A DNA stretch of 64,000 nucleotides from Brachycybe producta (Eukaryota; Arthropoda; Diplopoda; Playtdesmida; Andrognathidae), in contig JAUPFP010000006.1 in the NCBI GenBank assembly GCA_036925085.1, positions 8,065,325 to 8,129,324 on the forward strand, given 5' to 3'. The position numbers and the translations under genes are program-made. The number at the start of each line of letters is the position of its first letter. Within the stretch, counting starts at the first letter, position 1. Below are positions 8,641 to 51,733 of the stretch, piece by piece. The notes under the pieces are model-generated. The model was given only the letters and a program-made list of their open reading frames with translations, was not told the origin of the DNA and searched no databases.

Positions 8641-11600
8641 ATGGTGAAACGAGTATCTACGAATAAGAAACAGCAGGTAAATCGTCATTACTTTTATATT
8701 ATATTGGCTGTGCACGTGGTCTGTTTTGGCGTTTAATCTGTCTTTATGGCAACGCGCGTGCTCCTCGTATATTGGGGCATACGCGTGTGCAGTTTGTTGC
8801 TATGGCAACGATGTAAATGTAAAGGTTAATAGATGTATAGTTAATGAATAAGCCCTTAACTAAGAAAACTCCAGTGAGACAAAAATTAGTATTTAAATAT
8901 TATTTAATACAACAAAAAGACAAATGAAATACATTAATATCTACAGCTGTTTAGTTCACAAATTTAAATAAATAGTTGCATTAAAATATAATTAAATAAC
9001 CAAAAAAAAATAGAGATAAGATTTCTATTGCTTCTAAGTCTAGAGGAAGAACAACTTCAACTCTAACAAGACTTAAACCGAGAAATGGAGCCAAACATGG
9101 AGTTAGGAGTATTCATTCCAACCAGTTCTGTTTCTTGGTGGAGTGGATTACATGCAAAACCAGATGATTTGAAGATAGATGGTATTATGATGATGACTGG
9201 ATGAACAATCCAACAATGGTTGAAAATAGTTCATACTAGTGACGCGTGTTTTATTTTGTTTAGGGCATTTGTTTATCCGTGCCTTTAGCATTGTACGTAT
9301 TGCATTGTTTATTTTTGTGTTTTCATTTAAGAATTTCAGTGAAAATGGTTCATTAAAAGACGATGATGTTAAGGAACAACCATCTGAGGAAAGAATTCAA
9401 GAGAACAGACATGTATCCGATCCGGAATCTGACGTTGACGCAAATTCGGACACGGATTCTTCGAGTGTCTATTCCGCTTTAGAGGAAGAGGAGGAAGACG
9501 ATGATACGAGTAGTTCTGAAGGCGAAGTGGAAGACGCAGACGAACAAAATGTGAATTAAAGACGAATATCATCGTGATTTAGTTTTATTTATCTCGCTTT
9601 ACTTGTAAATCTTTTTAAACAGGAAAGTCTTAGTGACTTAGAAGACGAAGAAGTCGGAGACATCGAAATGAATCCAAACATGGCGTTAGAACTTTCAAAA
9701 CCTGTCGTTGATGAGTACGAATACGATTCTTCGGACGAAGAGGTTTCAACGTAGACAATTTTGTCTCCGAAAAACTTTTCGTAATGTTTCCCGTTTTTTT
9801 TTTAGGATATACGTAACACTGTCGGTAACATACCGATGGAATGGTACGATGACTACGATCATCTCGGTTACGACTGGGACGGAAAGAAGATCATGAAGCC
9901 GGCATCGACAGACGAACTGGACGATTTCCTCAGCAAGATGGACGATCCATACTATTGGTCTCTCGAAAACAAAACGATATATTTCCAATGTATTAATATC
10001 GTTGTTCTTTCCTCTCTCTTTAAACAGGAGAACAGTTAACGATCCGATGACTGGAAGAAACGTAATTCTGTCGAACAGAGACGTCGAAATGATTAAACAG
10101 ATACAAAAAGGACGTTATCCAGATAAGAACTACGATCCATACGCGGTATAATCAAATATTTCTCGTTTTACTTAAAAGAACTATTAAATTAATACTTGAC
10201 TTCGTAATTTTTCTCTTAAGCCTTGGATCGATTTCTTTACACACGAAACAATGATCCACCCCGTGTCGAATCGTCCGGAGCATAAACGTAGTTTTGTTCC
10301 GTCGTACATCGAGAAGGCGAAAGTCAGTCGATACGTGTATCGTATGAAAATGGGACGTCTAAAGCCGCAACCACCGAAAACAGAAGACGACGATGACAAA
10401 CCAAAATATTATCTCATGTGGGAAAAGAACGATGTAAAATAACCTCAAAACTGAAACGGTTGCTAAAGATTATTTGACGAATCGTACTTGGTTTCGTTTT
10501 CTAATAGGATCCAGTGCATAAGCGGATTCAAAATCGAATTCCGGCTCCGAGGATGAAGTTACCAGGACACGAAGAATCTTACAATCCTCCACCGGAATAT
10601 CTGTTTACACCAGAAGAGGTTCGTAACAAAAACACTTGAGTTTTTTGTTATTTTTGTGAAAGTTACATCGTTCAAAATTCGTTATTCAAACAGGAAGAGA
10701 AATGGAAAAATCAGGAGCCGCACCTACGCAAACTTAACTTCATTCCGCAGAAATATTCTTCCTTGCGAGCCGTACCGGCTTACAAAATGTTTGTCAGAGA
10801 ACGGTTCGAACGTTGTTTGGATCTTTATCTTTGTCCGAGACAACGGAAGATGAAAGTGATTAAAATTAAAATTATTTTTGAGACAAAAGTCGTGATATTT
10901 ATAACGTGATGCAGCAAAATAGGATGAACGCTTTTTTTTGGAAGTCTATAATATATATATTTATTTAAAATTAAAAGAGTAACAGAATGAACTGAAGCTA
11001 CTTCACTATATCTTTTTTTTACAAAAAAATTTTTTTTATCGCCGTTTCAAACTGTTTTTTTTTTAAAACATTTTCGTTGGTAAAAAACGCTAAAATTTGT
11101 AACTGCCGTAAAGTTTTATTTTGAAAGATATCTTTAAATAATCTACGGACTTTTACGTTTAAAATTAAAAATAAATTCTTTTAACAGGGTTTCCACCTAC
11201 CTCGAATTTTCCGAGAATTTAACGTTCATTTAAAATCTAGAGAAATATGTAAAAAACAAGAAAAAGTTTAAAAACACCGTCTTCGCCTTAAATTATAAAG
11301 AGAAGAGAAGACGAAGAAGAAATTTTAAAATGATATTTTTACTCGATGTGTCTTGACCTATACTGTAGTAATAATAAATAATTCGTTTTAAATATTCTCC
11401 AAAATTTCTTAAAATTAATTTTGAAAAATTAAAAAACTAATTTAAACAAGAATTTTAATATAAACAAAGATAGTTGCTGTTTCACTCACAATTATGAGTT
11501 TATGACTATCCTGTTATAAAAATAACAAAACGCACTTAATTCGAAATGGCAGCCATCTTGTTTACGGTATATTCAAATTCTTCTTGGTATTAGTTTCTTA

Positions 11601-13607
11601 ATGGCTTTTTAATTCTTAAAAAAATCAATTTAAAAAGAATTAATAAATATTTTTTTCACAAATACTTCAACGCGATTCAAACGACCAAAATCCCAATGGA
11701 AAACTCGCGAAAATGAAAATTGATTTTTGGTGGGAACCGCGGTTAATAATTAAATTCCAAAAAAAGTGTTCTACCATGTTTGAAAACTTTATAAATTGAA
11801 ACACACTTGTATTTTTAGTTGAACATCGATCCCGAGGATCTGATACCGAAGTTACCAAAACCGAAAGACCTGCAACCGTTCCCCACCAAACTGACATTGG
11901 TATCTTACATCGGATGTTTCTTATTAGAGAAGTACGCTTGCGAGTAATTTGAATTTCGTTCTTAGATTTACAAGGGAAACAAAGATAAGGTTCGGTGCTT
12001 GACTGTCGAGCCGTACGGTCAGTTCTTAGCATCTGGTTGTGATGACGGCATTGTTAAGATCTGGGAAGTGTTGACTGGACGTTGCTTTGGAAGCATCAAG
12101 ATGGAAGGAGCCATAAAAAGCATTGCTTGGTGTCCCAACGCCAGCATCTGCGCCATCGCAGTTGCAGTGTTAGTTTCACACTTCGAAACGATTCTTGTCG
12201 ACACACAAAAAAAGAATCGCATTAAAAGAATGTTTTTGTTTTCAGTAACAACAATGTTGTAATCTTGAACCCGAAAGTAGGCGATAAATTGGTTTTCGGT
12301 AATACGGACCAACTACTTGGAACTCAGCTTAATGCTTACAAAGGTAAAACTCAAGAGTTTCAAATCTTGTGAACGAAGTTTGGATATGAAGTTCTTTTGA
12401 TCATTTACAGCAGGAAAAAGTTCCTCTGTTGTTTGGCGATTAGCAACGGACAAGGAACACATGAAGGGTTACAGGATAGTCATCGAACATCCAAAGGTCT
12501 CTTCTTCGGGTTTTTAATTTCTATCTCGATTCTAAACGGTTTTGTTTCTTTAAATATCACAGGAAGTAAAACAAGTGACGTGGCATTGCAAAGGAGATTA
12601 TTTTGCAACTGTAATGTCGAATGCCGCAAATAAGTCTGTCTTGATGCATCAGTTGACGAAACGACATTCGCAGGTAAATTTGGATACCACTGTATTTATT
12701 GTTAATTGGATTATATAAGTGACAATTTTATTGTTTGTTTGTTTTTTGTCTCAGGAACCGTTCCGTCGTTCTAAGGGCCTCGTCCAATGTGTTCTGTTTC
12801 ATCCCATTCGTCCTTTCTTCTTTGTCGCCGTGAGTGAACATTATAAGGTTCATTTTCTATGTACTCCGTTACAAAATCTTTTATATTTAACGCACAGACG
12901 CAACGTTACGTTCGTATTTACAATCTGATGAAACAAGAACTGTCCAAGAAACTGATGGCGAACTGCAAATGGATTTCGAGCATGGCCGTCCATCCTGCAG
13001 GTACCATCAAATTTTGTTTTGATTATTTTTGATGGAATACATTGCAAAGTATTGGGCTACAAACATGTTTAACGTCATATCTGATATTTACTCTTCTCTG
13101 AAAGGTGATAACTTAATCATCGGCAGTTACGACAGCCGCCTCAGTTGGTTCGACTTGGATCTGTCGAGCAAACCGTATCAAACACTCAGGTGACTCGAAG
13201 TGCTTTACATAATGTGTTTTACGATAGATCAGTTTAACCCCTTTGTTCTTTGCAGGCATCACAAAAAGGCACTTCGTCAGGTGTCGTACCACCGTCGTTA
13301 CCCGCTATTTGCGTCAGCTTCCGACGATACTTCCGTCATCGTTTGTCACGGAGCAGTTTACAAGTAAGCCAATACAAATCAATACGTATTATTTTAAAAG
13401 CATTTTCGGTAACGTTGCCAATTGCCTTTTGTTTTTTTTTGTTTTTTCTTTAGCGATTTCTTGCAAAATCCATTGATCGTACCCGTCAAGGTCCTTCGAG
13501 GCCATTCGACCAAGGACGACCTCGGTGTTTTAGATTGTCAGTTTCATCCAACACAACCGTGGATTTTTACTAGTGGCGCGGATGGACACATTTTCTTATA
13601 CACTTAA
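8641..13607 (+). CDS. BOP1: Ribosome biogenesis protein BOP1, 18 exons, complete
   Basis: Nucleolar WD40 protein of the PeBoW complex (PES1-BOP1-WDR12), needed for 28S/5.8S rRNA maturation and 60S assembly; yeast Erb1. Exons: 8641-8676, 9332-9550, 9623-9742, 9806-9957, 10028-10145, 10221-10433, 10508-10618, 10694-10855, 11819-11899, 11966-12168, 12246-12343, 12411-12496, 12563-12673, 12755-12829, 12898-13000, 13105-13189, 13256-13363, 13454-13607. The total is 2235 nt (744 aa; human 746) with all phases consistent. Residues 1-125 are acidic and low-complexity. BOP1NT spans ~126-390 ([68 protein letters not shown]). WD40 repeats run ~405-744 ([42 protein letters not shown]). The 963-bp intron 8 shows no feature. 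Exon 12 has a tandem NAGNAG acceptor. Confidence 0.96.
8713..8718. promoter_or_regulatory. Second E-box CACGTG, BOP1 intron 1
   Basis: Perfect E-box 37 bp into intron 1. With the site at 8560 it brackets the first BOP1 exon, 147 bp apart. Confidence 0.4.
8740..8753 (+). promoter_or_regulatory. RFX X-box match, first copy
   Basis: Fourteen bases matching the RFX consensus GTHNYYATRRNAAC at every defined position, in BOP1 intron 1. A second full match begins at 8796. Confidence 0.5.
8796..8809 (+). promoter_or_regulatory. RFX X-box match, second copy
   Basis: GTTGCTATGGCAAC, a full match to the 14-bp RFX consensus and close to an ideal inverted repeat. It is 42 bp downstream of the first match and in the same orientation. 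Confidence 0.55.
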
Positions 13608-19304: not shown

Positions 19305-20190
19305 TTTATTTTTAACATTCAGCGAACTCAGCGCCATCTATTAGCTAAGTTAAGAGTTAAGAGACTACATCGCAAAAATACTTTGAAAAATCTCCGCAAA
19401 GAGCGCTAGCATCGTTTTTATATTGAGAAAATAGACCCCTAATGTTAAAAAAACAAAAAAATGTTAATAAATTTTAAAATACACACAAGTCGCAGCGGCA
19501 ATATGTTTATTTTTCATATTTAAACTTGTCCTTTGTTTTCAAAATGCAACGTGCACCTTAAATATATGCTGATCGAGTGATAGACAATTAATTGTCACGT
19601 TGCACTGAACAAAAATGAAAACTGTTCAGTGAAGTCCATAGAGAGTACAATCCAATGGAACAATGGATTGTACTCTCTATGGACTTCACTGGACAGTTTT
19701 CATTTTTGTTCAGACACCTCCGGTTCCGGAAAGTACCAGCCTTTTGAAACACCATTAAGGTATACCCCAAGGTTATCCTAGAATGGAAACCAGAAATGGG
19801 ACAAGTCTGAAACTTGTTCCATTGGACATGGCCATTGAGAGTACAATCCGATGGAACAACCTTTTGGTATACCTTAATGGTATTTCAAAAGGCTGTATTT
19901 CTGGAACCGGAGCTAGCTAGTGTTTGAACAAAAATGAAAACTGCAGTTTTCATTTTGGTTCAGACACATATCCGGTACCGGAAATAAAGTCTGTTGAAAT
20001 ACTGTTAATACTTTGAAATAATGTTGTCCCATTTACAAAAAAGTTTGTCCCACTTTGGGCTTTGGGGTACACCTTAATAACAGCTGCAGATCACAACATC
20101 CGGATCGTCTGTTTCATAATACATGTATTATGAAAGAGACGATCCAGATGTTTAAAGTACACACTGCACTTGGCAATTGAAAGCTGTTTC
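19305..20190. repeat. PIGU upstream flank with nested palindromes
   Basis: No gene is seen. A near-perfect palindrome at 19605-19713 has arms of about 49 nt (TGAACAAAAATGAAAACTG, CCATAGAGAGTACAATCCA) and a short loop. Diverged pieces of the same arms recur at 19830-19860 and 19925-19965. GGTTCCGGAAAGTA and TACCTTAATGGT segments are inverted around them. This is a composite foldback element. Confidence 0.7.
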
Positions 20191-21337
20191 GTCATACTTT
20201 GGGGAAACAAGTACGGAACCGGGTAACTGTTGCAAGAATAATAATCGATTTTGCCATTTTCTTTTCGTATAAAACAGCTGTCATATTCCATTTCATTTTT
20301 TCTAAGGGCGTTCATAGGCGAGCGACGTTTAGTGGCCGAAATGAACTGCAACCGACCACTCAAGTCGACTCTATACGACCAGTTTTTGCAGCCCAGTCAA
20401 CTATATACTTGTAAACCTTTCCAACCACTGGCAGTCGACTTGAGTAGCTGGTTTTACCAACACCACCCACTTTTTGTAGTCCATCTCGACCACCAAGGGC
20501 CTTGTCACACAAACCACTTTTTAATGATAACGAGTTCGACTTGCAAAATGTAGTTGGCTTGTCTCGCCAAAACCGACAACTCGAGTTGAGCGTGTAAGTT
20601 GAGCGAACTGTAAAACAGTGGTCGTCATTGACAACAGGAACTGATATGACGTTTGCGAAAATAAACTTTGACAAAGGAAACGCTTTCGTTATGGTTTCTC
20701 CGTCATAGGAATTGAACACAATAAAAAAAAAGTCGCGACAGGCCGTTTTAAACTGTTTCTTGTCTAAAAGACAACCCGATCTGTCGTCGATGGCGGAGAT
20801 CGACCACTTTCAGGCGACAGAAGTTTGAAAGTTGTTAAAACACCGCTCATACGAGCGGTATCATTTTATAGGAATGCAAATGTCAGCCACAGCTCAGCCA
20901 CCTGTGACAACAGTTTAGCAGTCGAACTCGACCAATAAAAAAAAAGTGGTTCGAGCGACACGGACCTAAAATGCTCTCATCTGTTGAATGCCTTAAAAAG
21001 CAAACATGTTCACCAGATCAATTTCTTGCACGAGAAATGTATACGGAACTCGCAAAGTTACCACGTACTTTTTTGTTAAAAAAAAAATGAAAAAGATGTA
21101 TGATGTTTTTTCAAAAGCTATTTAGTGTTTTTGTAAAGTTCGATCAGCTCCATTGGTTCGAACAAAATAATGAAACCTGTCAAAATGAAAATTAAATCAA
21201 TGAAAAAAAAAAATGATTGCCATTATCATTTTAAAGTAAATGAAAACCGATACCGCGTCAACCAATACATCCTTCACGTGGAACAGGAAATTCGTATTTC
21301 AACAACCCAGGTGGTTACACATGTACCAACTGGATAA

Positions 21338-21343
21338 TATAAG
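21338..21343 (+). promoter_or_regulatory. TATA box of defensin-like gene A
   Basis: TATAAG 65 bp upstream of the start codon, well placed for a short 5' UTR. The same spot in copy B (near 24155) reads TACAAG. Confidence 0.5.
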
Positions 21344-21407
21344 TCCATCCAATAGGCAGGCAAAAACTGCCAAACTTCATTTAGTTGTCTGGTTGCCTGT
21401 GTATAGT

Positions 21408-22529
21408 ATGTCTGGTTCCAAAGCAATTATTTTGGTGGCTTTCGTCTTTACGATCCTGTTTGTAAACGGTAAGAAAACGCATTGAAAAGGAAGCTGGTTA
21501 TAAATGTAGAAATAAAAACCCGCTTCGTAAACGGGAGTTGCTATTTTGATGAACGGCAGAACGGATCGGAACAGACGGAAGGTTAGGTTTAGTTAAATTA
21601 AGCTTGTTGCAGAGGGTCTTGGGAGCGCAGCCCTCCAATTTTCAAAGAATTAATTCATCAAATTTGTCCAATGTTCGGACCGTTGAACAAATTACGGAAC
21701 ACTGGACTAATTTGATGAAAAAAATCTTTAGAAACTGTGGGGCTGAACTCCCAAGACCCTCTGCAACAAGCTTAATTTAACTAAACCTAACCTTCCGACT
21801 GTGTCTACTATTTTTTCCGACTGTTCCTACCGTTGTTCCGACCGCGTTCATCAAAATATAGCACCACCCCTTTCAAACTCTCCTAATTCTGTTTTCCAGA
21901 AGAGCAAAAATTAAGTGAAACACGTCGTTTAGAAACTAGAAGAGCTACCAGTTTGAAAAATGACATAAATTTAAAGCACAGTGTATTTTTTTTTTAAATT
22001 TTTACCTATCAAAAGTTCATTTTGAAAGATATATCAAACATGAAACTACTAAATGAAATGATTCAGCTACCATTTTAGCTTCGAACACATTTTCAAGTTC
22101 GCCTTACAAGTGTTGCTCCTGTATCAAAAGAAACTTGAAAGTGATTTAAAAACTAGAATGGTAGCTTAATCACTTAACCAGATAAACCAGAGATTTCGAA
22201 AATCGGCTGTTTTCATAAAACACCTTACATTCGTATAAAATTGTTTCTATAATTCTTAATATGTAACTTGTTATCCTCGTTAAATAGTTACATCCAGACG
22301 GTTCTTCGGTTGTTACTCTTGGTTTCATAGTTGGTTTTACAGTGGTTGTGGCAAGGAATGTCCTGTAGGATATGGGAATTATAAATGTGCTCATCACGAA
22401 AACCACTGGCAATGCCTTTGTAGTACGGGAGAGACAGTAGACGGTGAAAATTGGCTCACAGTGCCAGAAGCAGAACAGCAGAGAAGAAACGGAGGAGGAA
22501 ATGTTGACGAATTCGAACATCAATTTTAA
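21408..22529 (+). CDS. Secreted six-cysteine defensin-like peptide, copy A
   Basis: Two exons, 21408-21468 and 22288-22529, joined in phase 1, giving 100 aa. Exon 1 is nearly all signal peptide: Met, a Lys at 5, then a hydrophobic core of about 13 residues. Exon 2 begins with a Thr-Ser-Arg-Arg dibasic stretch and holds all six cysteines at residues 29, 41, 45, 54, 63 and 65. The pattern C-x11-C-x3-C-x8-C-x8-C-x-C is the CS-alpha-beta signature (CxxxC with CxC) of invertebrate defensins. Two SWF motifs lie between the first two cysteines. A tail of about 35 residues follows, with an Arg-Arg at 86-87 and acidic residues; bivalve mytilin/myticin precursors also carry acidic C-terminal extensions. 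It is probably antimicrobial; the same scaffold also serves toxins, so function is inferred. The start was set by signal-peptide position and the TATA box. Confidence 0.8.
21571..21803. repeat. Inverted-repeat MITE in copy A intron
   Basis: Arms of about 75 nt (GGAAGGTTAGGTTTAGTTAA, GCAGAGGGTCTTGGGAG) with AATTTGATGAA inner arms and an asymmetric loop. The same element at the same place in copy B pre-dates the duplication. Confidence 0.85.
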
Positions 22530-22648
22530 GAAGATACAATATTTCAAAAAAATTATCATTACAATGAAAAGACAACAATGTACTGTATCTCCTATGTTCA
22601 TATTTGATTAAAACTGTTTAATGAATGATTATTGTTTAATTAAAATCT

Positions 22649-22654
22649 AATAAA
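22649..22654 (+). promoter_or_regulatory. Polyadenylation signal of copy A
   Basis: AATAAA 120 bp after the stop codon. Its counterpart in copy B has been pushed to 26333 by an inserted LTR. Confidence 0.6.
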
Positions 22655-22671
22655 TGTGTCGTAGTTTTTTT

Positions 22672-23079
22672 GTTGTAATTAATAAATTTCGTCACAAATT
22701 GACGAGAGAAAAAATGAATGCAAATTGCAGTTTGAATTTTTCTAAGACATCTCTCTCTCTCTCTCATTCAAATTGATAAACAACGTCCTTTGTGCCAAAT
22801 TCTGATAATGGCCACAGCTGAATAATGGAACCATTCATAATGAAGGAAGTTAATTAGTTGATCTTCGGAAGCTTTTCACACATTTCATCGATCGTGATCA
22901 TTTTTTACTATAGTTCTAACTGCGATAAAAGTTGCCAACTGTTTTTTTTTCTATTATTTCCTTTGAGAAATCAGCTTTTTCTGCGATACTCAAACAATCA
23001 AATTCACATAACCTCAAAATGAGACTTCGCAATGTTTCTCAATTAAATACGAATCATTTCTGAGCTCCATGTCATTATT
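22672..23079 (+). repeat. 408-bp repeat between the two peptide genes
   Basis: Almost identical to 33577-33993 over its whole length: a handful of substitutions plus a CT-microsatellite length difference. Both copies begin GTTGTAATTAATAAATTTCG and end TGTCATTATT. No terminal repeats are seen. Confidence 0.9.
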
Positions 23080-24224
23080 GGGGAAACAAGTAAGCAACCC
23101 GGCAACTGTTGCAAGAATATTCCTCGATTTTGCCATTTTCCTTTCATATAAAAACAGCTGTCATATTCCATTTAATTTTTTCTAAGGGCGTTCATTGGCG
23201 AGCAACTTTTAGTGGCCGAAATGGACTGCAACCGACCACTCAAGTCGACTCTATACGACCAGTTTATGCAACCCAGTCAACTAAACCTTTCAACCACTGG
23301 CAGTCGACTTGAGTAGCTGGTTTTACCAACACCACCCACTTTTTGCAGTCCATCTCCACCATCAAATGCCTTGTCACACAAACCACTTTTTAATGATAAA
23401 CAGTTCGACTTGCAAAATGTAGTTGGCTTGTCTCGCCAAAACCGACAACTCGAATCGAGCGTGTAGTTGAGCGAACTGTAAAAAAGTGGTCGTCATTGAC
23501 AACATGGAACTGATACGTTTGCGAAAATGAACTTCGACAAGGAAACGCTTTTGTTATGGTTTCTACGTCATAGGAATTGAACACAATAAAAAAAAAGTCG
23601 CGACAGGCCGTTTTAAACTGTTTCTTGTCTAAAAGACAACCCGATCTATTGTCGATGGCGGAGATCGACCACTTTCAGGAGACAGAAGTTTGAAAGTTGT
23701 TAAACACCGCTCTTACGAGCGATGTCTTTTCATAGCAATGCAATATCAGCCACACCTCAGCCACCTGTGACAACAGTTTAGCAGTCGAACTCGACCAATA
23801 AAAAAAGTGGTTCGTGCGACACGGACCTAAAATGCGCCCATCTGAAAAGCAAACATGTTCACCAGATGATTTCTTGCAAAGTTACCACGTACTTTTTTGT
23901 TAAAAAATGAAAAAGATGCATGATTTTTCAAAAGCTATTTAGTGTTTTTGTAAAGGTCGATCAGCTCCATTGGTTCGAACAAAATAATGAAACCTGTCAA
24001 AATGAAAATTAAATCAATGAAAAAAAAAATGATTTCCATTATCATTTTAAAGTAAATGAAAACCGATACCGCGTCAACCAATACATCCTTCACGTAGAAC
24101 AGGAAATTCGTATTTCAACAACCCAGGTGGTAACACATGTACCAACTGGATAATACAAGTCCATCCAATAGGCAGCCTAAAAACTGCCAAACTTCATTTA
24201 GTTGTCTGGTTGCCTGTGTATAGT

Positions 24225-25459
24225 ATGTCTGGTTCCAAAGCAATTATTTTGGTGGCTTTCGTCTTTACGATCCTATTTGTAAACGGTAAGAAAACGCATT
24301 GAAAAGGAAGCTGGAAATAGAAACCCGCTCCGTAAACGGGAGTTGCCGTTTTGATGAACGGCAGAACGGGTCGCAACAACAGTAGGAACAGTCGGAAGGT
24401 TAGGTTTAGTTAAATTAACCTTGTTGCAGAGGGTCTTGGGAGCCAAGCCCTCCAATTTTCAAAGAATTAATTCATCAAATTTGTCCAATGTTCGGACCGT
24501 TGAACAAATTACGGAACACTGGACTAATTTGATGAAAAAAATCTTTAGAAACTGTGGGGCTGAACTCCCAAGACCCTCTGCAACAAGCTTAATTTAACTA
24601 AACCTAACCTTCCGACTGTGTCTACTATTACTATTACTCTACCCTTTCAAACTCTCCTAATTCTGTTTTCCAGAAGAGCAAAAATTAAGTGAAACACATG
24701 GTTTAGAAACTAGAAGAGTTACCAGTTTGAAAACTGACATAAATTTAAAGCACAGTGTATTTTTTTTTAATTTTTACCTATGAAACATGAAACTACTATA
24801 TGAAATGATTCAGCTACCATTTTAGTTTCGAACACATTTTCAAGTTCGCCTTACAAGTGTTGCTCCTGAATCAAAAGAAACTTGAAAGTGATTTAAAAAA
24901 TAGAATGGTAGCTTAATCACTTACAAGATATTTTCATGTTGATTGATATCTTTTAAAATAAGCTTTTTTATACGTCAGTTTCAAAATTATTAAACTTTAA
25001 GCAGACGATATATTTTTTAAAACTTTACCTATGATAATAAAAGTTTATTTTGAAAAATATCAATCTTATAGTTTCTAACCAGACTCCCTTAGTGTTGTGC
25101 TCTTCTGTTATGCAGAATAACCAGAGATTTCAAAAATCTGCTATTTTCATAAAACACCTTACATTCGTATAAAATTGTTTATATAATTCTAACATGTAAC
25201 TTATTATTCTCGTTAAATAGTTACATCCAGACGGGTCTTAGGTTGTTACTCTTGGTTTCATAGTTGGTTTTACAAGGGTTGTGACAGGGAATGTGGAGTA
25301 GGATATACGAATTTTAAATGTGCTCGTCACAGAGCCCACTGGCAATGCCTTTGTAGTACGGGACCCGGCATAGACGGTATTCAGAATTGGCTCACAGTGC
25401 CAGACGTAGAACAGCGGAGAGGAAACAGAGTAGAAAATATTGACGAACTCGACGATTAA
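24225..25459 (+). CDS. Secreted six-cysteine defensin-like peptide, copy B
   Basis: Two exons, 24225-24285 and 25221-25459, phase 1, giving 99 aa. The signal exon matches copy A except for one silent change (CTG to CTA). All six cysteines and the SWF-SWF segment are kept. In the mature exon I count 11 replacements up to the last cysteine and about 15 more, plus indels, in the tail, with no silent change. Several raise the positive charge of the cysteine-rich part (Ser to Lys, His to Arg, Glu to Arg). The frame is open and splice sites are intact, so it looks functional, but the TATA box is altered and an LTR sits 102 bp after the stop. Same family and same caveat on function as copy A. Confidence 0.8.
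24388..24620. repeat. Inverted-repeat MITE in copy B intron
   Basis: Copy of the element at 21571-21803, carried along by the gene duplication. Confidence 0.85.
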
Positions 25460-25561
25460 CTTTAAGAAGATATAATATTTCAAAAAAATGATCATACAAT
25501 GACAAGACAACAATGTATCTCCTATGTTCATATTTGATTAAAACTGTTTAATGAATGATTA

Positions 25562-26313
25562 TGTGACGTGGCTGGCCCTCTTGCACCGCCCGGTTGGGGT
25601 GGTGCGGGCTGCGGACCAGCCACCATGAACGATTTTACCGCTTGCGACATGTCTGTTCTTTACAGTCTTTTCGCGAGTTGGTTCATCCGCGCTCTAAGTC
25701 CACAAAAAGACTTTTACTCTCGGGAACCTTCGGTATAGGGCGTGACGACTCCGGAGTTACCGCTACTGTTTTATCGAGTTACTTAGAGGCCCCAAGCGGA
25801 GAGACTCAGATAGTACCCGAGTACCGTCGTTGGGAGTTCCGTTCCTGTTCGGAATTGCAAACTCAAAATCACAATACACAACACTGTATATATTAAATCC
25901 AGGTAGATTGAATAAAAACTCTTTACTCTTTTAGGTTACATTGTTGTATACATCGGTACTTTTACATTCATTTAATTTACAACTCTACTCTTCGATCGAT
26001 CGCTGTTTTCTAACTGTCCTCACACATAGGTCCCACCGTACTCTCCTCCGGTCTCCTGGGAGGGGCGACTGTCACCTCAGGGCTCAATGATTGACCAACT
26101 GGGCCAATCATTGCCCTGGGCTGAGAATGCAACCTTATAAGGGAAGGTATTTTTGAGTCTCTTTTCCCAATTCTCACGGTTCGACTGGGTTCCACGAATT
26201 CACACAGAATTCGGGCCACCCAAGACTGGACATCTGTGCACCGAGGGGTGCCATACTGTCAGACAGGAATTTCTACAGGGTGTTCCACCATTCTGTTGCT
26301 ACAGGGTGTCACA
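25562..26313 (-). mobile_element. Solo-LTR-like element after copy B
   Basis: 752 bp bounded by TGTGAC and GTCACA, flanked by ATTA on both sides (probable target duplication). Read on the minus strand it starts TGTGACACCCTG, has a TATAAGG promoter-like site and an AATAAA-rich zone, and near its end an ATG with a short open frame (MSQAVKSF). The empty site survives in copy A near 22629, which fixes the boundaries. Related copies lie at 48837 and 50973. Confidence 0.75.
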
Positions 26314-26530
26314 ATTATTTTTAATTAAAATAGAATAAATGTGTCGTAGTTTTTTGTTGTTGTTGTTCCTATTTTAGGTGATGGTGTTAATTTGGTTAAG
26401 GTGTCTATCTATGCACTTAAATCCCCCGCCCGGGTCTTTCAAAAACGTTTCAACGCCAAACTTCTTTCAGGATCGAAACATTACAAAATAAGATGGAGAT
26501 GTTTTAAACTTGTTAAAACCACCAAACTGC

Positions 26531-31364: not shown

Positions 31365-34300
31365 TTAATAGATGGACGAAAGATCCAAATGTAAATCTCT
31401 CGACGGCTTCGAACCGTTCGATTGGGACGACAACGGAGGTCCTTTTATTCGCCTCGGAAAAGTTGCGGCCGTCTTCTGTTTGGCTCCCAAGCTGCCACGA
31501 CTCGCCATTATCGTGTGACACATCATGGCTTTGCACTCCTTACAGATGGTCATTAGAGAACCGCGTAGTTTTTCTTGGTGCTCTAAAGACGGTCGCTCTG
31601 TTTTGCGAACGGTCCACGATCGTAATAACGGAGCTCTACGTTTAACGGCTACGGGCGTAGCTTTCGAATTCTCTTTCCAACTCTCGTTGGCCGTGGGAAT
31701 AACTGGCAACGAGGCCATCGAATGTGTTTCGCAGTTGGTGTCCAGAGACGGTATTGGCGGGAGAGATGATGGTGGTGTGTTTGATTTTCTATGGTTTGCT
31801 TTGGTTGGAGTTGTTGGAGATGTCGGCACCGATCCAGAACTGTTTAATAAGAAATTTATAAGCAAAAAAAATAAATCACTTTAAAACATCTCTCGTTCCT
31901 GAATTCCGAAATAATTAAACTGTAATCAGAATTATTTTCTTAAAGTAAACAACTTTAAAAGCTAGAAATTTCATTCATGCCTTCCAGTTAGAAATCCAGC
32001 AAGGTCCATCAACCTCCACGAAGGTCCATCATCGCTCGCCGGTGAAGGACTTGGACTTAACGTGTAAACCGGAATACTAGCAAAATGTTCGGTCGGAATA
32101 CGCATCTAAAAACGAACCGAAAAAACAAATATTTATATAGAAAGTTCAAATTTAACACGTTCGAGTAAAGAATAATAAAAAAAAACCTTGGAGCAGCACT
32201 TGTCGCAAACTGTCCTCGTGCACAGCTTGCACTTATTACCCCAGGGACCAAACATCGCAAATCGTGTTTTCCGACAAGTGAAACACAACTAAAACAACAA
32301 CAACGACGACGACGACGATAACAATAAAAACCATAAAAATGAATGTTCACACTTGGATTGAAATTAAATGTTTCTGATATTATGTGGGTGGTTTTCATAA
32401 CTCACCTTTCTGTTGAGAATGTCGTTATAATGCGGTGTGTCGGCCAACATCGTTTCTAATTCGGCTTTGGTCAGTTCACTTCGAATGTGGACCACTTCTT
32501 CGAGAGTCAGAGACAGGCAATCCGAGAGACTACTTTGCCGTATCATCTACGCGTCAAAAGAACCAAACAGAATGTTAAATATACAAAGTGTGTACGGAGA
32601 AAACAATGCCACACTTTATTTTTCAAATTATTACTTGGATGGAAACCGTCTATTGTTTAATTTGAAATATTTCCGAAACAATAAATGCAACTTAGTAGTT
32701 AACAACATACTAAAATGTAGTTATTTTAAAAATAGAATAATTTAAAAAAAATTGATTGTTTTTTTTAAAGGTTTCAAAAAAAGGGTTAAAAATAAGTTTG
32801 GTTCAGCAAAAAAAATTACAATTAAAACCTTATTTTTATTTTAATAACTGTCATCTCCCTTGGAATTTCTTTCAAGTTGGGTGACAGACAGTATACTAAA
32901 ATATATAAAGCAAAGCTTAAATAAAGCTAAACTTAAAATAGAAAAATTTAACCAGTCAAGTTTAAAGTATATACGATTCCTCAAACTATTATTTTACCTT
33001 TCAGAAGCAACATTAAGAAAAACTTGTATTTTCGAAACTAGAAAGGTCGCAGTTCAATAACTTACGGGTATTTTTCATCTCTTTTAAAATAAGCAGACGA
33101 CAATTTTGTCAATAAAAAGTTTATATTGAAAAATAAACGTGATTCAGCTCCCATTCTAGTTTCTAAAACACATTTAATGTCTCCTTAGTGTTGCTCTTCT
33201 GAAACGCAAAATAATCAGAGTTTCAAAATTATCTATCTGTCCAGAAAACATTTTAAACGGTATATAGACATTTGCCCTAAAGACACTTGCCCTACGGACA
33301 CTTACCCTAAAGGGCCATTTGCCCTAAAGTCACTTTTTTGTTCTCTCTTTTCATACGGTTTAGTGTCTTTCGGTGCAGTATGTTAAATTGGTTCTGCGCC
33401 CACAAAAAACGCCAAATGATGTAAATTTACATTCCTGATTAGGACAAATGTCCTTTTAGGGCAAGTGGTTTTAGGGCAAATGGCTTTATGACAAGTGTCT
33501 TTAGGTCAAATGTCCCACACCCATTTTAAACAATGTTTTTCGAATAAAATAAAATAAAAATATTTCAGCCATGGTCGTTGTAATTAATAAATTTCGTCAC
33601 AAATTGACGAGAGAAAAAATGAATGCAAATTGCAGTTTGAATTTTTCTAAGACATTATCTCTCTCTTTCTCTCTCTCTCATTCAAATTGATAAACAACAT
33701 CCTTTGTGCCAAATTCTGATAATGACCACAGCTGAATAATGGAACCATTCATAATGAAGGAAGTTAATTAGTTGATCTTCGGAAGCTTTTCACACATTTC
33801 ATCGATCGTGATCATTTTTTACTATAGTTCTAACTGCGATAAAAGTTGCCAACTGTTTTTTTTTCTATTATTTCCTTTGAGAAATCAGCTTTTTCTGCGA
33901 TACTCAAACAATCAAATTCACATAACCTCAAAAAGAGACTTCGCAATGTTTCTCAATTAAATACGAATCATTTCTGAGCTCCATGTCATTATTAATTAAA
34001 ATGCAATCATTGTACATCTTTTTTTTAAAAAAACAACCAATTATCTAAATAAAAACGTTCCCCTCAAGGCACAACCTCCTCTGGAAGTAAATTAAACTGA
34101 AATGTACCCCATTCCAACTGAATTTCTGCAGAAACGTGCAAAAATCTCTCATTTTCTTAAGAGTGGTCACATTTCTCATATCGCACCTCGGTTGGAAGAG
34201 TAGCGCACAACTAAAAAAAAAAACACTTTTTGGGGGAAATAATTTTAAAGTTGTATTTTTCCTATTTCAATCTACCGTAGGGGAGCCAAATAAACCGATA

Positions 34301-48836: not shown

Positions 48837-49671
48837 TGTGACACCCTGTAGAAACAGAAGGTGAAACACACTTTAGTCAAAATTCAGTCTTGACAGTATG
48901 GCACCCCTTGGTGCACAGATGTTCAGACTTGGGTGGCCCGAATTCTAGTGAATTCGTGGAACCAAGTCCGACCGTGAGAAAATTGGGAATAAGTCCCAAA
49001 AATATCTTTCCTTATAAGTAATATCCCCGGCCCAGGGCAATGATTGGCCCAGTTGGTCAATCATTAAGCCCTGAGGTGACAGTTGCCCCTCCCAGGAGAC
49101 CGGATAAGTGAGCTTGAGACTTGAGTGTGAGGACAGTCAGAAGATAGTTAAAACGAGAAAGTCTTGAACTAGAGGCAGAGTTTTCGAGATTTAGAGAAGT
49201 TAAAGTTTTAACTGAAAAAGAGGATAATTATTATGTAAAGAACTGTACACAACCTTGTTATGTTTGTCATAATTATCGAAGTAAAAGAGTATATTTTATT
49301 CAACCTAAAAGGCCCTGTGTGCAGAATTTATTGGGTTTTTGGCACTCCTAAAATAGAGGAGTATCCAGCAGAAGGCACTCAGACACAGCCTGAGTCCCTC
49401 TGCCTGGAGCCTCCAGCAACTCAACGAAAAGGACAGATAGTGCCTTCGGCATCGTCAAGCCCTATATCCAAAGATCCCTAGGAAAGACGGCCTTTTTGTA
49501 GGCCGTTACCAGGCAAGGCAAGTAAATGTCACGCCCGGTGAAATCAACCCTCAACAGAGGATCAGAGGCTGGCCCGCAGCAGCCGACAACAGAGTCGACC
49601 CCGGCACCACCGGCTCAACAACGTCAAAAGAGTACGCAAAACGGTGGCGCCAAAGGGCCAGCATCGTCACA
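48837..49671 (+). mobile_element. LTR-like element TGTGAC...GTCACA, forward copy
   Basis: 835 bp, the longest of three. It carries TGTGACACCCTGTAG, the AGATGTnCAGACTTGGGTGGC and CACCTCAGGGCT-type blocks shared by all copies, a TATAAG at 49014, and near the end an ATG frame (MSRPVKSTLN, Pro/Gln-rich) running past the terminal GTCACA. The frame could be the start of a gag protein, as in elements whose coding begins in the LTR. No internal domain follows, so this is a solo copy. Confidence 0.65.
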
Positions 49672-50972: not shown

Positions 50973-51733
50973 TGTGACGTGGCTGGCCCTTTGGTGCCCC
51001 GTTTCGACTTCTTTGCTGAACCGGGGGTGCCGGTGCCGACTCTGTTGTTGCCGGGGTTGCCGATTTTACCGCTTACGACATCTATTGTACGACCGGTTCA
51101 ATTGCTCTTGTAAGTCCACAAAAAGACTTTACACTCTCGGGAATCTTCGGAATGGGGCGTGACGATACCGGTGGTACTACTTTCATCCTCTTCACTTCCT
51201 TGGAGGATACAAGCAGAGGGACTCAGATTGTGTCCGAGTACCTCTGTTGGTAGTCCCTTGACTTTCAGGGCTTGGAACTTATTAGCGGACACAACACTTA
51301 CACAAGTTTCCATAAATAAAACATCAAACTCTTTTTACTTCGTATGCTTTACATGGTTGTGTACACTTTGTTACATTATTCTTGAACTCTTAATTTAGTC
51401 AGGACTGAACACTCTTCCAGATCTGACTAACTGACTCCACGCATAAGTCGCACGGCACACTTGTCCGGTCTCTGGGGAGGGGCTCCTGTCACCTCAGGGC
51501 TCAATGATTGACCAATTGGGCCAATCATTGCCCTGCGCTGAGAACACTACCTTATAAGGGAAGGTATTTTTGGGACTCTTTTCCCAATTCTCACGGTTCG
51601 ACTGGGTTCCACGAATTCACATAGAATTCGGGCCACCCAAGTCTGGACATCTGTGCACCAAGAGGTGCCATACCGTTGACAGAAAGGAATTTCTATAGGG
51701 TGTTCCACAACTCTGTAATTACAGGGTGTCACA
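50973..51733 (-). mobile_element. LTR-like element, third copy
   Basis: 761 bp in the same orientation as 25562-26313 and similar throughout. The terminal ATG frame is broken by an early stop (MS-stop-AVKS). No convincing target duplication, so it is probably older. Confidence 0.7.

Follow-up and report, generated by a model that had tools for sequence, protein, structure and literature searches.

Why should two gene copies that are much alike in their introns and flanks differ most in the exon encoding the mature peptide? The question is raised by a tandem pair of small genes in a 64,000-nucleotide stretch of the genome of Brachycybe producta (Diplopoda; assembly GCA_036925085.1, contig JAUPFP010000006.1, positions 8,065,325 to 8,129,324), hereafter the window, which forms part of the contig designated C6. 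Our best reading is that the two genes are one-module members of a poly-defensin family resembling, yet distinct from, the X-tox proteins of Lepidoptera and the nasonins of wasps.

The pair arose by a tandem duplication of ~2.5 kb and consists of two intact two-exon genes arranged head to tail on the + strand. The duplicated unit of copy A, comprising a 5' flank, the gene and a 3' flank, spans 20199..22671; its ends were set by blastn, and its blocks match copy B at 86–98%. The unit of copy B spans 23078..25562, with its 3' end resuming at 26314-26360 past an insertion resembling a long terminal repeat (LTR). Exon 1 of copy A (21408..21468) encodes a hydrophobic, predicted signal peptide, MSGSKAIILVAFVFTILFVN, plus one base, and is followed by a GT donor; the same form of exon lies upstream of other family genes. 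After an 819 bp intron (21469..22287), exon 2 (22288..22529, stop included) encodes the mature peptide, with a six-cysteine module (cysteines at 22311-22421) and an acidic tail. Exon 1 of copy B (24225..24285) carries one silent change and so encodes the same leader, and its 935 bp intron (24286..25220) is followed by the mature exon at 25221..25459 (cysteines at 25244-25354). Both introns are GT..AG and in phase 1, and the reading frames encode 100 amino acids in copy A and 99 in copy B. This gene structure is a prediction read from the DNA.

The introns and flanks of the same duplicate provide a built-in neutral reference for exon 2. In a global alignment of the two units, divergence is 66/1153 aligned columns (5.7%) in the 5' flank, 1/61 (1.6%) in exon 1, 35/736 (4.8%) in the intron, which has an additional 8 indel events over 282 columns, and 3/97 (3.1%) in the 3' flank directly behind the stop; all noncoding sequence taken together gives 5.2%. 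Exon 2 differs at 39/242 positions (16.1%); at the noncoding rate, 37 or more changes in 234 nt would occur with a probability of 2.3e-9. Intron and exon divergence are thus unequal, which supports accelerated evolution of the mature exon. Of the 78 comparable codons in the mature part, 26 carry replacements and not one shows silent change alone, with length differences of one codon and of two codons besides; the changes fall 14, 15 and 8 times on codon positions 1, 2 and 3. Nine replacements lie between the first and the sixth cysteine (C1 and C6), or eleven with the inclusion of two that immediately precede C1. All six cysteines and the segment CYSWFHSWFY are kept in both copies, as are the splice sites and frames.

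Replacement sites diverge at 0.18, three to four times faster than the intron at 0.048 (Fisher odds ratio 4.4, p=1.9e-8), and likewise faster than all noncoding sequence at 0.052 (Fisher p=4.0e-9). Random sprinkling of the 37 changes predicts 8.9 +/- 2.3 silent steps (722 stop-free simulations), whereas 3.3 are observed by NG86 path averaging (P=0.0055). These synonymous steps are placed inside codons changed more than once, so the synonymous divergence (dS) is not zero. A fitted codon model rejects omega=1 for the mature part as a whole, with a pairwise omega of 5.5 (2dlnL=6.6, likelihood-ratio test p=0.010); without the indel block omega is 20.6 (p=0.0024). These observations make positive selection on the mature exon very probable.

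Some points weigh against this. The test is pairwise, with two sequences only, and omega=1 is kept for the C1–C6 part alone (omega 4.7, p=0.13), as it also is for the tail alone (omega 4.3, p=0.11). Within exon 2 by itself, the contrast between replacement and silent change is not significant (Fisher p=0.070). The small sample and the separate core and tail tests would be compatible with relaxed constraint, under which one copy drifts and the excess of replacements owes nothing to selection. Drift of this kind, however, should bring replacement sites to the noncoding level and not three to four times above it, and both copies have retained intact frames, splice sites and all six cysteines; relaxation is therefore already disfavoured, and we regard it as very improbable. 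A sliding scan in which divergence climbs at exon 2 relative to the flanks could also be read as an older, unconverted tract left standing while gene conversion made the flanks alike. Such an old tract predicts high silent divergence, yet in exon 2 silent sites diverge by 7% (3.3/46), close to the 5% of noncoding sequence, and immediately after the stop the 3' flank is only 3% diverged. Conversion thus fails to explain the excess, and its probability is, if anything, slightly lower still than that of relaxation.

The original prediction, made from the letters of the window, was accurate as to the two intact genes, the conserved cysteines and SWF-SWF segment, the eleven replacements in the cysteine-rich part and the accelerated change of the mature exon. 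Its description of introns, flanks and signal exon as nearly identical is borne out by their low divergence and by the single silent change in exon 1, but not by the lengths of the introns. Its count of about 26 replacements plus indels with no silent change is correct for whole codons and has to be modified for the ~3.3 synonymous steps.

Members of the family across the genome

Within this genome (295 Mb in 442 contigs) the pair is part of a family that is made largely of five- and six-module proteins. Besides the pair, three genes with a single module were found, together with at least nine whose one open frame encodes five or six related modules. In a first protein search of the genome, the matches were a gene with 47% identity at C6:6185 kb and a distantly related gene on C13. 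Two loci with the same cysteine framework, C6:6190 kb (E=0.0015) and C6:8657 kb (E=0.58), matched weakly in a second protein search. A first profile, built from the first ten modules including those of C6:6190 and C6:8657, was run on six-frame open reading frames (ORFs) of the window and other stretches (304 kb). It identified ten genes, five with one module and the others with five, five, five, six and six. To avoid circularity, a second profile was restricted to the long genes (five genes, 27 modules) and had no one-module row. This profile recovers all five one-module genes (copy A, E=8.4e-11; copy B, 2.8e-6; C6:6185, 2.3e-6; C6:8657, 1.8e-6; C6:6190, 2.9e-4), and the next ORF follows at 0.64. 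A genome search with a five-module protein gave additional matches on C3, C14 (two genes) and C17 and more on C6. The genes on C3, C14 and C17 have six domains each by profile, three of the C14 domains being weak (E 0.002, 0.011 and 0.054). Three groups of hits at C6:4.686-4.695 Mb and a further group at 4.675 Mb are known as matches only, so these counts set a minimum for the family.

The members share an anatomy as well as a module. Seven of the ten genes are preceded by a signal exon whose last residues are N-G or A-G and which is followed by GTAAG in phase 1: copies A and B, C6:6190, C6:8657, C13:4652, C13:4656 and C6:6185. Among the multi-module genes, at least two have a signal exon of this kind and a phase-1 intron upstream of their modules. 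The filter for this exon fires 10 times in 468 kb on both strands, the two exons of the window included. For the remaining three genes (C13:4648, C6:4714 and C6:4707) it found no signal exon, which counts against the explanation preferred below.

The cysteine spacing of both mature peptides in the window is C-x11-C-x3-C-x8-C-x8-C-x-C, and that of the family is C-x9..11-C-x3-C-x8-C-x8-C-x-C, often with G-x-C. The full six-cysteine scheme is present in 27 of 32 modules, with a first loop of 6-13 residues, a C4–C5 loop of 8-10 and C-x9-C-x3-C-x8-C-x8-C-x-C as the commonest spacing (9/27); a glycine two residues before C4 occurs in 19 of these 27. Under a looser limit on the C4–C5 loop, the four further genes on C3, C14 and C17 add 19 full-scheme modules, 17 of them with that glycine. 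The five exceptions to the full scheme are module 2 of three C13 genes and modules 5 and 6 of C6:4707; module 5 of the latter is without C4, and the excerpt of its module 6 begins after C1. In module 2 of the three five-module C13 genes (L024:8260-8442, L024:4034-4222 and L025:2453-2638), C4 and C5 are missing while C1, C2, C3 and C6 are kept, so disulphide pairing must differ there. After C6 the alignment has a consensus of Y-T-x-x-E-A, where the window peptides read NWLTVPEA and NWLTVPDV; its strict form occurs in only 15 of the 32 modules. A cleavage motif of the RxKR type is found in two of the nine multi-module frames, which gives no indication that the chains are cut wholesale into their modules.

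In a maximum-likelihood tree of the 32 modules (55 columns), modules of different long genes cluster largely by position. The five one-module peptides join five module-1 rows with a support of 85/95, a grouping that the program grades as neither shown nor rejected. It appears from this that the one-module genes may be stand-alone versions of module 1, and we tentatively infer that they are derived rather than ancestral. Against this, resolution is weak, with good support for 4 of 29 inner branches, and a grouping of the one-module peptides with last modules is not rejected (p-AU 0.32). With so few columns and supported branches and with the alternative still standing, the origin from module 1 is put forward as the favoured hypothesis and not as a result.

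Fold and charge of the peptides

The framework given for invertebrate defensins with the cysteine-stabilised alpha-beta (CS-alpha-beta) fold is CX4-15CX2HCX6-9GX1CX4-9CX1C (PMC6435467); a ten-cysteine reference array has been given for the superfamily (PMC5116183). The spacing of the window peptides is compatible with the former. Neither copy has the histidine before C3 or the G-x-C4, although the glycine of the latter is common elsewhere in the family. The scorpion defensins BmKDfsins are described as having two exons, one phase-I intron and the mature peptide in exon 2 (PMC6435467). The genes in the window share all of these features and six cysteines with C-x3-C and C-x-C, and the phase-I intron before the mature-peptide exon is present in both of them and in five of the eight other genes as read from the DNA. 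They differ from the scorpion genes described there in lacking the histidine and the G-x-C4, in having an acidic tail of 34-35 residues and in giving no significant sequence match.

On the basis of the cysteine framework, a CS-alpha-beta fold with the corresponding disulphide pairing is plausible, and two AlphaFold2 models, both of low confidence, have a helix-strand-strand order. When the first model was re-aligned to 544 PDB chains, the structural matches were weak, and the best two were the peptides ABF-2 (ASABF type) and Blo t 19. A PDB profile search gave a best match of E=0.051. Among Pfam profiles, those for scorpion toxins, defensin-like peptides and gamma-thionins match one module each, at E 0.039-0.18, when the 32 modules are scanned singly.

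Several results argue in the opposite direction. Those single-module scans give their best E-values to unrelated families (PBCV1_P7, 0.0024; EGF_2, 0.018), and Pfam scans yield nothing above cut-off where cut-offs are given. A protein database search returned no significant match for the peptide, for a five-module protein or for the 32-module profile. Profile–profile comparison with seven defensin sequences gives a score of 14.3, within the range of shuffled controls (exceeded by 1/20 column shuffles and 2/20 cysteine-kept shuffles) and below the 15.8 obtained for three EGF-like factors. The other three matches of the PDB profile search are a fluorescent protein and two betacellulins. At its end the second AlphaFold2 model has a strand, the first a helix, and no recognised CS-alpha-beta chain is among the 49 matches listed for it. 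Significant sequence similarity to known defensins was thus not found by Pfam, PDB profile search or profile comparison. Weighing both sides, we consider the CS-alpha-beta fold probable; the original assignment retains its plausibility from the cysteines, but gains no convincing Pfam match or confident model.

The charge of the peptides is also unusual. With histidine not counted, the net charge of the core is 0 in copy A and +3 in copy B, and taken whole the mature peptides carry -4 and 0, a range from acidic to neutral. Defensins are typically cationic, so this is a point against a defensin-like reading. Unless the acidic tail is cleaved off, a charge of this kind speaks for a specific target over plain attraction to membranes. 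Potential cleavage sites are pairs of arginines (RR) in the tail and close to the N terminus. The overall neutral to acidic character would also suit an action on resident bacteria of the gut lumen or on symbionts rather than on pathogens, as with the symbiosis-associated cysteine-rich peptides of the Riptortus bean bug; we consider this unlikely.

Surroundings of the duplicated genes

The junction of the tandem units is a spacer (22672..23079) of ~410 bp that recurs 10 kb downstream at 33577-33993 with 97% identity and is perhaps a mobile element. Directly behind the unit of copy B lies a solo-LTR-like insertion (25563..26312, TGTGACG...TGTCACA, flanked by ATTA/ATTAT), to which pieces at 51111-51732 (76%) and 48838-49142 (85%) are related. 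It separates the stop codon of copy B from the AATAAA at 26334, the counterpart of that at 22649 in copy A, and a further AATAAA lies within the insertion itself, at 25911; the 3' end of copy B may therefore differ from that of copy A. Both introns contain a long imperfect inverted repeat (21571-21802 and 24378-24629) with arms of 106-116 nt that are 85-88% complementary and a loop of 20 nt. Its presence in both copies indicates that it probably predates the duplication, and it is perhaps a hairpin-type mobile element.

Exon-like open frames at about 9230-12260 on the + strand resemble what we take to be the ribosome-biogenesis protein BOP1, and a fragment at 2158-2769 on the - strand is presumably reverse-transcriptase-like, of the non-LTR retrotransposon type. 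Eight weak matches to the odorant-receptor family (7tm_6) were noted on contigs C2, C6, C31 and C71, several of them in long uninterrupted frames, a finding that points to an arthropod genome.

Comparison with known multi-module defensins and likely role

Chains of defensin-like modules have been described before. According to PMC2728511, the X-tox proteins of Lepidoptera (Spod-11-tox and Gall-6-tox, the "defensin rosary") carry many tandem CS-alpha-beta-like modules in one secreted, lineage-restricted protein. The modules of Spod-11-tox are given there as C-x4-C-x3-C-x7-G-x-C-x3-K/R-C-x-C with non-conserved spacers, and the protein was found to be without antimicrobial activity. The long relatives of the pair similarly chain their modules in one protein. 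In contrast, the loop lengths of the 27 full-scheme modules depart from the X-tox consensus, and one-module genes of the same type stand beside the long ones; the genes in the window have one module each, and at least nine relatives carry five or six. In Nasonia vitripennis, nasonin-1 has one module, while nasonin-2 and -6 have 4-5; a phase-1 intron follows the signal peptide, no protease processing signals are reported, nasonin-6 has an exon for each module and nasonin-2 is said to have lost its introns (PMC2853521). The same paper mentions repeats in fungal defensin-like peptides and reports accelerated substitution in Nasonia defensins. Compared by description, the millipede family is like the nasonins in combining one- and multi-module members in one genome, in the phase-1 intron after the signal peptide and in having no protease processing signals apart from the RxKR-like motif in two frames, and unlike nasonin-6 in that a single open frame encodes all five or six modules of a chain. 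Two-module defensins have been reported from birds and a legume. No other multi-module arthropod defensin family was among the matches listed in our literature search, whose coverage leaves out most subscription papers and which therefore does not show absence from print. The proposal that the pair represents an undescribed defensin-like family agrees with the searches as far as they reach, but the pair is a corner of a family largely of five- and six-module proteins, and the earlier view that no known family could be named must be qualified by the parallels of this architecture in X-tox and nasonin-2 and -6.

Based on these observations, the explanation we prefer, with somewhat better than even confidence, is that the pair encodes tandemly duplicated, secreted, disulphide-stabilised one-module defence peptides, most likely of the CS-alpha-beta (defensin-like) type. 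Exon 1 would supply the signal peptide and exon 2 one six-cysteine module with its acidic tail, the module matching the repeating unit of the longer proteins. After secretion, the peptides would adopt a fold with three disulphides and would target microbes or microbial products. Since the duplication, selection would have favoured amino-acid change at mature positions other than the cysteines, the contrast in core charge being an example, as expected of an effector tracking changing microbial targets. The role in defence is itself rather likely, no more so than the explanation as a whole.

Among secreted toxins and venom components, too, this fold class is found, as is evolution driven by replacement. 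The replacement-driven change with conserved cysteines and signal exon would fit such a function as well, as would the aromatic-rich first loop; the scorpion-toxin Pfam profile matches one of the 32 modules weakly (E=0.039), no better than unrelated profiles. The nine multi-module relatives, however, resemble the architecture of immune proteins such as X-tox and nasonins, and the RxKR-like motif is confined to two frames. A venom function is therefore an improbable reading, if a little less so than symbiont control.

Returning to defence peptides, we tentatively raise the possibility, less probable than not by a good margin, that this family is a third independent origin of poly-defensins in arthropods, outside Lepidoptera and wasps, in which module 1 was repeatedly released as a stand-alone peptide and then positively selected. 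If so, the long proteins would be a source of new effector genes. The reported loss of antimicrobial activity in X-tox, despite its defensin modules, raises the question of what such chains do. As chains and single modules of the same type occur here in one genome, their functions are directly comparable.

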